NCBI GenBank assembly: GCA_015272395.1
Contig: JACYLQ010000037.1
Location: forward strand, 40,882 to 104,881
Origin: Calothrix sp. C42_A2020_038
GTDB taxonomy: Bacteria > Cyanobacteriota > Cyanobacteriia > Cyanobacteriales > Nostocaceae
DNA: 64,000 bases
Reading direction: 5' to 3'
Shown here: positions 7,286-10,683 of the stretch, piece after piece
Numbering within the stretch: the first letter of the stretch is position 1
Layout: each line of letters starts with the position of its first letter
The notes under the pieces: generated by a model
The model's input: only the letters and a program-made list of their open reading frames with translations
What the model was told of the DNA's origin: nothing
Databases searched by the model: none
Program-made: the position numbers and the translations under genes

Positions 7286-8150
7286 ATAATTTTGTTAAGA
7301 AATAAAGTTATCCACCGCTAATTCGTCATGAGCCAATATTCCATGCACCACAAGCTCTGCCATGACATAAAATTAGCTAGGATATTAACTACTTGGTCTG
7401 CATTTATAGTTCCTGAACCATTATCTAAACTTTATACTTATAATGTTAGTTCAAACGCCCTGGCGAAAGCCAAGGACGCAGTACCCTTGGGGTTTTAACC
7501 CACATTCCGCACCCCAGGCGCCACATGCAATAAATCAGTACTGGAAAACTATAAAGTACATTTGATAATTATGAATTTAATGAGAATTTATATTATTAAT
7601 ACTGGTTTTGATGTATTAATCAATTTTTACATGGTAAAATTTCAACACAATATTATGAAGGAAAAAATTACTTTAAGTTATGTGTTGCACTAACTATAAA
7701 CTAGGTAAACACTTATTTTATCTTCCATAAATATTACACCAATCAGCAAACTAAAATTAAGTGTAATTTAAACAAATTTAACAAGAGTATAGTAGTTTCA
7801 CTTAAACAGATAATGATTGGATGGCGCCTTTGCATCATTGATAGTTGTTTGCAGCTTGGGGCGCAAAATGTTAGTTCAAGCGTCGAAGCAACGATATTTA
7901 ATTAACAATAATGTTTTTAATGTTTTTTAGAATGCGCTACACTTATGCTCGTTCCTATTAAGTAGTATTATTAATATTAATATTTTTTTACTATCCACGT
8001 AAGTGCCAGAACATTAAAAATTACACAATCCAATATTCTAATCAAGCGGAGGCACGGTATCTAAAACTGCACCGACGCAAGGTAAACGGCGCCTCAAAGA
8101 CACCTAAAAATGTGAAAATATAAATAAATACTTTACTAAATACCTACTGT

Positions 8151-8348
8151 ATGTCTAATTTTAAAGATATTGAAGTTCAAAATCTTGACCATTTAGGTAT
8201 AGTTGCAGGAATAATTGATTCAATTGGATTAGTAGAAATAATTAATAATTTATTAGGATTCGGAAAACGCAACTATGCTTGGCTTACTGATGTACAACAG
8301 GAAGTGTTACACACGCTTGAAAAACCATACGGTTTGATTGAAACTTGA
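8151..8348 (+). pseudogene. IS1634-like (DUF4277) transposase remnant, internally deleted or truncated
   Basis: N-terminus MSNFKDIEVQNLDHLGIVAGIIDSIGLVEIIN is characteristic of DUF4277 transposases; only 65 aa. Confidence 0.75.
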
Positions 8349-8376
8349 CAGAAGCAAAAAATTTAAATTTTAGCGT

Positions 8377-9132
8377 TTAAGAATCGTAAAGAGATTTTAA
8401 GTGTGTCGGTAAGTCTATTTCACAAAACTCTGTAGCAGGAGTAGTGGGTAAACCACTTAGCTCAAATAAATCTCTGATTTTTCGCGTAATAATTTGGATT
8501 AAAGTGCCATTTTTATCCAGTTCAAATATATCGCTTTTATTCAGAACAACTATTATCTTATTTGTTTTAGCATGAAAAATTATTTGGCGAAGTCTACAAT
8601 CACGAACTGCTCTTTGTTTAGAACTTCCTGCTTTTGGAAAACCGCTTGCTCCATTGAGCGTAAAAAAAATACCAAGACCTGAACCTGTTAGGTTTAAATC
8701 CATGATGCTACATAAACGAGCAAATTGCTTATCAGGTAAGGGGTAATTTGTTGCTTTTGCTTCAACTACAATATCTCTTTTCTCTGTATTAAGGTATAGC
8801 AGCTTACAAACATTTAACCAGGCAATATCATCTCCACTGACTAACAAATCATATTGAGGACCTGCTGACTGGAAGCTTTTGATGCTTTGGACACCCTTTA
8901 ATCCTTTAAATACCAGTACAACAATCTGTTCTAATAGCTTTCCTGCTTCTTGTGTTTGCGATTGTGTTGGTTTTGTTAACTGTATATACTTATCTAATTT
9001 GTCTAAATAATCAGAAAGCCTTTTGTCTGCTTGATATAAATAAGAAGCTAATGTGTTTAAGCCTGGTTCACCTTGCTCAAGTTTTTCCATTGCATCGATA
9101 ATGACTTGAACAAGTTGGTCTTGACTATACAT
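8377..9132 (-). CDS. Hypothetical protein, candidate PD-(D/E)XK-fold nuclease
   Basis: QYDLLVSGDD...KRDIVVEAKATNYPLPDKQ: an Asp followed by an ExK motif in a beta-strand-like context; last gene of a 3-gene minus-strand cassette. Confidence 0.55.
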   Translation of the reverse strand: MYSQDQLVQVIIDAMEKLEQGEPGLNTLASYLYQADKRLSDYLDKLDKYIQLTKPTQSQTQEAGKLLEQIVVLVFKGLKGVQSIKSFQSAGPQYDLLVSGDDIAWLNVCKLLYLNTEKRDIVVEAKATNYPLPDKQFARLCSIMDLNLTGSGLGIFFTLNGASGFPKAGSSKQRAVRDCRLRQIIFHAKTNKIIVVLNKSDIFELDKNGTLIQIITRKIRDLFELSGLPTTPATEFCEIDLPTHLKSLYDS

Positions 9133-9165
9133 AAATTAGGTTTTAGATTAAACAAATTCTATTGG

Positions 9166-9510
9166 CTACTTGAATTCTGCCATTAAATCAAAAGATAGCT
9201 CATCATAATTGTCTATACTTTTATCACAATTTGGGCAAGTCCAAGGTAAATTAGGAAAACCTTTACCATATGGAATTGCTCCTACTGGAACTTCGGGTTC
9301 ACAGTTGTGATAAATAAGAAGTTTCATCTCACAAAGTCCTTGAGCCTCGAGAACTGACAATACAGCGAGAGCTTCAGAATATTCTATTCCCAACCAGACA
9401 GCAAGTTGATGCGGCATTACTGTTGTCCATGCCTTAAGCTGCTTGCTCAGTTCCGCCTTGTGCTTTTCAGATAGGAAGTTTAAACTTCCTTTTAATATGG
9501 AGCTAGTCAT
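9166..9510 (-). CDS. Small wHTH-like/zinc-ribbon-like hypothetical protein
   Basis: MPHQLAVWLGIEYSEALAVLSVLEAQGLCEMKLLIYHNC (winged-helix-like) then PWTCPNCDKS; ATG at 9510 (TTG at 9525 overlaps upstream stop). Confidence 0.55.
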   Translation of the reverse strand: MTSSILKGSLNFLSEKHKAELSKQLKAWTTVMPHQLAVWLGIEYSEALAVLSVLEAQGLCEMKLLIYHNCEPEVPVGAIPYGKGFPNLPWTCPNCDKSIDNYDELSFDLMAEFK

Positions 9511-9521
9511 AACCCATAGCC

Positions 9522-10031
9522 TCAAAGTCCCAGTTCCTTCAGTAGAAACTTAAGAACCCCGGTACTACCACCATAATACTCCATAAAGCACTTTAAATGC
9601 TCAAAACAATCTTGAGTTGTGGAGTTGGGTTTTAGTCCAAAATAGCAGTGTGCTTTAAAAAGATTTTCCAGTTTATATTTTTTTAACTTATTTGGCTCTT
9701 GAATTGGGCCATACCAGCCTTCTTCTCCAAATTCACTTAATAGTAATGCAGGAGAATTAAGAGTTGGAGTACTCTTGTGCAAACCTATTTGAATGCTCAA
9801 CCATGTTCTAGGCTGCTTTACATACTCAAGCAATACTTCATTAGGGGTTAATTTACCTTTTTCAAGTGCATCAGCCACTTTTGAAGCTACTTCATCTTTT
9901 CTTAAGTTTCGTTGTCCCGACGAAATTAGTCCTCGTAGGATATCAGCAGTAAATTCTTTGCTAGACAAAAATTTTACACTAAAATCTCTTCCAGGTGGAA
10001 AGCCACAATCAACGAAAGCATTAATATTCAT
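9522..10031 (-). CDS. Hypothetical protein, first gene of the 3-gene cassette
   Basis: Complete 169 aa ORF, ATG start, tightly packed with the downstream gene. Confidence 0.6.
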   Translation of the reverse strand: MNINAFVDCGFPPGRDFSVKFLSSKEFTADILRGLISSGQRNLRKDEVASKVADALEKGKLTPNEVLLEYVKQPRTWLSIQIGLHKSTPTLNSPALLLSEFGEEGWYGPIQEPNKLKKYKLENLFKAHCYFGLKPNSTTQDCFEHLKCFMEYYGGSTGVLKFLLKELGL

Positions 10032-10317
10032 AGGCTGTTGTCCTAAGAAAAGACTGACGAACTTGAAACTATGTTAAAAAAAGAGCATACCATTCGGAGC
10101 AATTATTATGAAATACTTACAAGTCTCATTTCAAGTTTCGTAACTACAGTATTTAGTTTTGATTACTTAAAACCTTAAGTAATCCTCGTCTACTTTCAAA
10201 CCCGTAGCTTTTTCTGTTTATAATAATATGTTTTGCTAAAACTTCGATTTTCAATATGGGTGGGGGTTTATGTTATAGAAATATCTACTCGCTTTTCAAG
10301 AGCAATTATTTGATCTA

Positions 10318-10494: not shown

Positions 10495-10588
10495 CCTTAA
10501 CTGAACCGTATTGGCATATAATATCAGAAATCAAGTCAACACCACGGTCAGAAAAATGTAGTCTCCAATTGGTAAATATAACTACATT

Positions 10589-10606
10589 AGCCCGCTTGCG
10601 CGGGCT
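10589..10606. repeat. Hairpin AGCCCGC-TTGC-GCGGGCT, dispersed-repeat/terminator-like
   Basis: Perfect 7-bp stem downstream of the minus-strand transketolase; followed by further hairpins to 10672. Confidence 0.55.
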
Positions 10607-10683
10607 TTGTTCGTATAGCACCATCCTTTGGGATGACGGGCAATGAGGTTGTTCGGGGCAACCCTACCCGTCTGAAGCCAAAA

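Follow-up and report, generated by a model that had tools for sequence, protein, structure and literature searches.

We propose that three co-directional genes, here called A, B and C, in their intact form probably make up a mobile operon in which a nuclease effector defends the cell against phages or other invading DNA, and that the copy described here is decaying. This copy lies in a 64,000-nucleotide stretch of DNA from Calothrix sp. C42_A2020_038, which we refer to as the window. In our model, the sensor or activator would be A, which is the largest of the three and the one most often found broken. B, which combines a helix-turn-helix-like domain with a zinc site, would be an adaptor coupling A and/or DNA to C. 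C would then cut nucleic acid once A and B have triggered it. The defence function is the least certain step of this model, and we infer it from context, i.e. from the neighbouring genes, the mobility and the patchy distribution of the cassette. The initial annotation had put forward a candidate uncharacterised defence or mobile-element system; a nuclease-bearing, mobile and defence-like cassette, found in some cases in defence-gene neighbourhoods, agrees with this proposal, but the copy in the window is not intact.

In the window, three tightly packed open reading frames on the minus strand occupy positions 9522-10031 (gene 1, here A), 9166-9525 (gene 2, here B) and 8377-9132 (gene 3, here C), as initially annotated. 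Comparison with relatives gives the following features:

9522-10031, minus strand: remnant of gene A, 169 aa, in which residues ~1-111 and ~319-376 of a protein of ~376 aa are fused in frame.
9690-9698, minus strand: deletion junction, at which GAGCCAAAT is the one copy left of a 9-bp direct repeat; in Calothrix PCC 7103, this repeat (GAGGCAAAT) stands on both sides of the 621 bp lost from the window.
9166-9510, minus strand: gene B, 114 aa, with a helix-turn-helix-like domain and an H-x-C...C-x2-C zinc site, shortened by a TAG at 9166-9168.
9148-9165, minus strand: in-frame remainder of gene B past the premature stop, which reads PIEFV and TAA and corresponds to the C-terminal tail in relatives.
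8377-9132, minus strand: gene C, 251 aa, open, encoding a predicted PD-(D/E)XK nuclease; E68, D95, E124 and K126 do not vary across 21 sequences.
10032-10290, minus strand: conserved upstream region, probably the promoter region, which accompanies the cassette within the genus, its sequence being shared with the genus copies.
8254-10291, minus strand: segment shared, by sequence comparison, with cassette copies located elsewhere in PCC 7103 (8344-10290) and FI2-JRJ7 (8254-10291).
8151-8348, plus strand: N-terminal remnant of a transposase (DUF4277) that abuts the downstream end of the cassette.

The three reading frames had been described as complete, and this description does not hold. In relatives, gene A encodes ~320-400 aa, typically 375, and its full length is 376 aa in PCC 7103 (L024) and Calothrix FI2-JRJ7 (L026). 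The window gene aligns to the first ~111 and the last ~58 residues of the full-length protein and is without ~207 aa found in every full-length relative. In PCC 7103, GAGGCAAAT occurs twice in exact form, at nt 333 and at nt 954 of gene A, on either side of the part that is missing in the window; in FI2-JRJ7, the first copy has the similar sequence GAGCTAAAT and the second is exact. Because this pair of repeats in PCC 7103 corresponds to a single copy in the window, gene A has evidently lost 621 bp (207 codons) in frame by deletion between short direct repeats. In a structure model of A, the deleted part makes up most of a predicted domain rich in beta strands. Gene B evidently starts at the ATG at 9510, which encodes a methionine common to the relatives, and not at the TTG overlapping A that had been suggested as an alternative start. 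The TAG at 9166-9168 sits at the Q of EFKQPIEFV in PCC 7103, where the nearest relatives read Q-P-I-E-F/I-V, and removes the last six residues of B; PIEFV and a TAA are still encoded beyond it.

Gene C is open. Its pairwise dN/dS is 0.27, which shows that it has been under purifying selection for most of its history. Along the window lineage, 11 nonsynonymous substitutions accompany one synonymous substitution, as compared to 50 and 47 on the other branches pooled (Fisher p 0.011; 199 codons of the window, L024, L026 and L031), a rough test since the L031 branch includes the path to the outgroup. This skew is consistent with relaxed selection on gene C in the window lineage. With two of the three genes truncated and selection on the third seemingly relaxed, the window copy is not an intact system. 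It is a degenerate, decaying copy, and the operon is most likely dead in Calothrix sp. C42_A2020_038. As such, this copy illustrates a route by which a nuclease operon may decay, in which the putative sensor breaks and the putative nuclease stays open. The lack of GGCGCC sites in the cassette, to which the initial annotation had drawn attention, carries no weight: 2.3 sites are expected, P(0) is ~0.10 and 12% of same-size windows in the 64 kb have none, so that we reject avoidance in favour of chance.

Protein C contains the motifs QYDLLVSGDD and DIVVEAKAT, on which its earlier reading as a PD-(D/E)XK nuclease was based, and the conserved residues and the predicted topology both support this reading. 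The four invariant residues, which are retained in a distant copy on a virus contig, provide the catalytic D...(D/E)xK and the helix-A glutamate by which the superfamily is recognised. In the AF2 model (pLDDT 79), a helix (57-76) is followed by three strands (81-87, 95-100 and 120-126), a helix (134-146) and a strand (151-158), i.e. the alpha-beta-beta-beta-alpha-beta order of PD-(D/E)XK folds. In this model, D95 opens the second strand and E124-x-K126 closes the third. Thus, the predicted fold agrees with a nuclease, but none of the individual Foldseek matches reaches significance (best E 6.5e-3, TM below 0.35). By our count, about a third of the top 50 matches are to proteins with PD-(D/E)XK folds, such as Rpb5, MspJI, EcoO109I, Avs4, SfsA, Cap4, Kpn2I, EcoT38I and Hef. 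C is similar to members of this superfamily (Cap4/DUF4297, the Avs4 nuclease domain, MspJI and others) in its E...D...ExK residues, its modelled topology and these weak structural matches. It differs from them in having a helical domain of its own at the N-terminus and a conserved DLP-x-x-L tail at the C-terminus, and in matching no Pfam, PADLOC, NCBIfam, PHROG or PDB family at the sequence level.

In protein B, H68, C70, C92 and C95 are invariant across relatives; they include the CPNC noted initially and likely form a zinc site that follows an N-terminal region resembling a winged helix. Zinc-finger matches of B in a PDB sequence search are short C-x2-C matches only, and we set them aside. 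The model of A (pLDDT 83) has helices around a large beta domain and gives no significant match in Foldseek searches of the PDB and BFVD; matches to CENP-N and CENP-L superpose with an rmsd of 11-18 and were rejected. Scans of A, B and C against Pfam, PADLOC, NCBIfam and PHROGs give nothing above noise, and the same is true for their full-length relatives against Pfam and PADLOC, for the models of PADLOC-DB 2.0.0 and for a PDB sequence search with the cassette proteins. We found no description of an A-B-C family in the literature searched. The family is without a name or model in the databases searched, in line with the initial view of it as uncharacterised and of gene 1 as a protein of no recognised family. 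The clear three-gene anatomy and the intact copies in named strains make its function directly testable.

Outside the window, intact A, B and C have ~375, ~120 and ~250 aa, and the order A-B-C is conserved at nearly every locus for which the contig extends far enough. Of 293 genomes of the order, 12 have gene A and 12 have gene C, and 10 of them have both (Fisher 4e-15); the non-shared cases are fragments, remnants or one B-C pair without A. Our scan of the genome collection recovered 18 cyanobacterial loci, some of them from the same genomes, and one further locus (L041; JAHLLS010000006.1) with an intact A-B-C in a metagenome-assembled genome labelled Deltaproteobacteria (Myxococcota). Because its neighbours are genes for adenylate kinase and a Mur-ligase-family (folC-like) protein, this locus probably represents a real transfer across phyla; no other carrier was found among 247 genomes of that phylum. 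All three genes are also present on a virus contig (IMG/VR records L095 and L096, identical in sequence here), with A at 38% identity and a serine recombinase ~4 kb from the cassette. The viral-contig copies were recovered with A and B as queries, and gene C as query gave no match in the phage collection or the viral contigs. Thus, the three-gene synteny on which the proposal of a functional unit depended is kept across cyanobacteria, the myxobacterial genome and the virus contig.

Besides the window, A alone is broken or absent and C open in Dolichospermum ST_sed8, Symploca SIO2E6, G046 and G052. C alone is truncated in G055, and both are frame-broken in Calothrix rhizosoleniae. These cases only hint at preferential loss of A, since draft assemblies may add false frame breaks. 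This pattern bears on whether A-B-C could be an addiction module similar to toxin-antitoxin systems, in which a toxic nuclease C is held in check by B (and A) for selfish maintenance rather than immunity. A small co-directional operon that is patchy, mobile and in one case plasmid-borne, and that adjoins VapBC- or YoeB-type loci in several genomes, would suit such a module. However, no known toxin-antitoxin family matches. Moreover, the loci with a lost or broken A (the window, Dolichospermum, Symploca, G046 and G052) retain open B and C frames, so that A cannot be an antitoxin needed by cells bearing C; B may still be an antitoxin of C. We therefore regard an addiction module as unlikely. Because cells that have lost A keep B and C open, C is presumably harmless without A, and this favours A as an activator over A as an antitoxin, as in the defence operon that we prefer.

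Five cassettes have defence or candidate defence genes nearby: type I restriction-modification genes and Cas12k (L015), the reverse transcriptase and NERD-helicase of a DRT system (L024), AAA15 and DUF3226 (L030), a Mokosh-like helicase (L020) and an NsnA/GmrSD-like gene (L036). Among neighbouring proteins, about 12 of 116 match PADLOC models at E <= 1e-30, as compared to 3 of 116 in 20 control regions (p 0.015), and 11 versus 1 without generic kinase and protease models (p 0.003), all protein counts being approximate and taken from family tallies. Counted per locus, the difference (5 of 23 versus 1 of 20; p 0.13) is not significant. Apart from the shared alaS position in six genomes described below, we found no additional conserved neighbour gene across loci.

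In one case, A-B-C is cargo of a type V-K CRISPR-associated transposon (CAST; contig C11 of G012, L015 597-15721 and L093 3209-6270). The order at this locus is CRISPR array, Cas12k, N-terminal part of hsdM, A-B-C, C-terminal part of hsdM, hsdS, a macrodomain gene, a VapBC-type pair, hsdR, TniQ, TnsC and TnsB. Here, the cassette sits within a type I restriction-modification locus, between a part of hsdM that covers positions 2-528 of the PADLOC model and a part that covers 532-833. Defence genes are enriched among the cargo of Tn7-like transposons, and unknown systems are expected among their uncharacterised cargo (Benler et al. 2021, PMC8649781). The A-B-C copy that travels together with type I restriction-modification, macrodomain and VapBC-type genes follows this theme and adds a concrete uncharacterised module to the cargo of a Cas12k transposon, whereas most copies, including the one in the window, are not placed on such transposons.

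A predicted PD-(D/E)XK nuclease, with one copy inside a type I locus, could also be a component of a restriction system, modification-dependent and type IV-like or else type II-like, that cuts DNA directly with no separate activation step. At other loci, no methyltransferase lies alongside the cassette and none recurs among the neighbours, the only one being that of the type I system at L015, and we consider this reading slightly less probable again than an addiction module, although cutting of modified DNA in a type IV-like manner may still apply. As for the defence operon with a triggered nuclease, its arrangement of three genes, the middle one encoding a small protein of helix-turn-helix type, is also that of the ABC-3C or 'middle component' conflict systems. 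It differs from these in that the cassette contains no ABC ATPase, that B matches no Pfam middle-component family and that no ATPase recurs beside A-B-C across loci.

The cassette has evidently spread horizontally. Gene C is present in 3 of 7 genomes of the window's genus, and the six congeners all retain the genes that flank the orthologous site but have no cassette there; two of these six carry it elsewhere. For instance, in PCC 7103, sequence corresponding to window position 7432 is followed by that corresponding to 10521, leaving an empty site, and the cassette is on another contig. The sequence common to the window, PCC 7103 and FI2-JRJ7 is limited to 8254/8344-10290. Thus, homologs are not fixed in relatives, as they would be for a housekeeping locus; the cassette is mobile and patchy. 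The vehicles include the mobilizable plasmid pTCL26-01_F of Nostoc sp. TCL26-01. Transposase debris had been reported on both sides of the window copy; it is present on one side (the DUF4277 remnant), but the other has only a short dispersed sequence (~10521-10644) that recurs in several copies near the orthologous locus in congeners. The transposase-like stretch 8254-8348 forms the same junction after the cassette in the window and in FI2-JRJ7, and is absent there in PCC 7103.

That the cassette mobilises itself, with nuclease C and DNA-binding B acting like TnsA or homing enzymes, would fit its movement as a unit of ~2.4-2.8 kb whose flanks differ between close relatives, but is the least probable reading, and a very improbable one. 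We found neither terminal inverted repeats nor a clear signature at the boundaries, and A, B and C contain no domain of an integrase or recombinase; an autonomous transposon would have terminal inverted repeats and a recombinase. The cassette also rides other vehicles (plasmid, CAST, virus contig), and one site after alaS is common to six genomes.

In these six Nostocales genomes (L025, L027, L028, L030, L035 and L040), the cassette lies 93-205 bp downstream of alaS, which encodes alanyl-tRNA synthetase. This position resembles long residence rather than a defence island and speaks against the defence reading. Because the cassette tree does not unite the six copies in a single clade (AU p 0.012), and because the group of Calothrix and the window falls within the same clade of 11, the tree suggests that the alaS site is old in this clade and that the Calothrix lineage moved away from it.

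Going further, we speculate, with somewhat less confidence than we place in a defence operon as such, that A-B-C is a new defence system in which A has a new sensor fold, B is a helix-turn-helix-like/zinc adaptor and C is the PD-(D/E)XK effector, that it is spread by plasmids, V-K CASTs and proviruses, and that viruses may counter it with a decoy inhibitor. The candidate decoy is an 85-aa protein that has only the zinc domain in common with B, encoded on a 78-kb virus contig (L097 4947-5201; IMGVR_UViG_3300032431_000003). It is 65% identical to the zinc domain of B over 52 residues, has no A or C nearby and is possibly a decoy or anti-defence protein.
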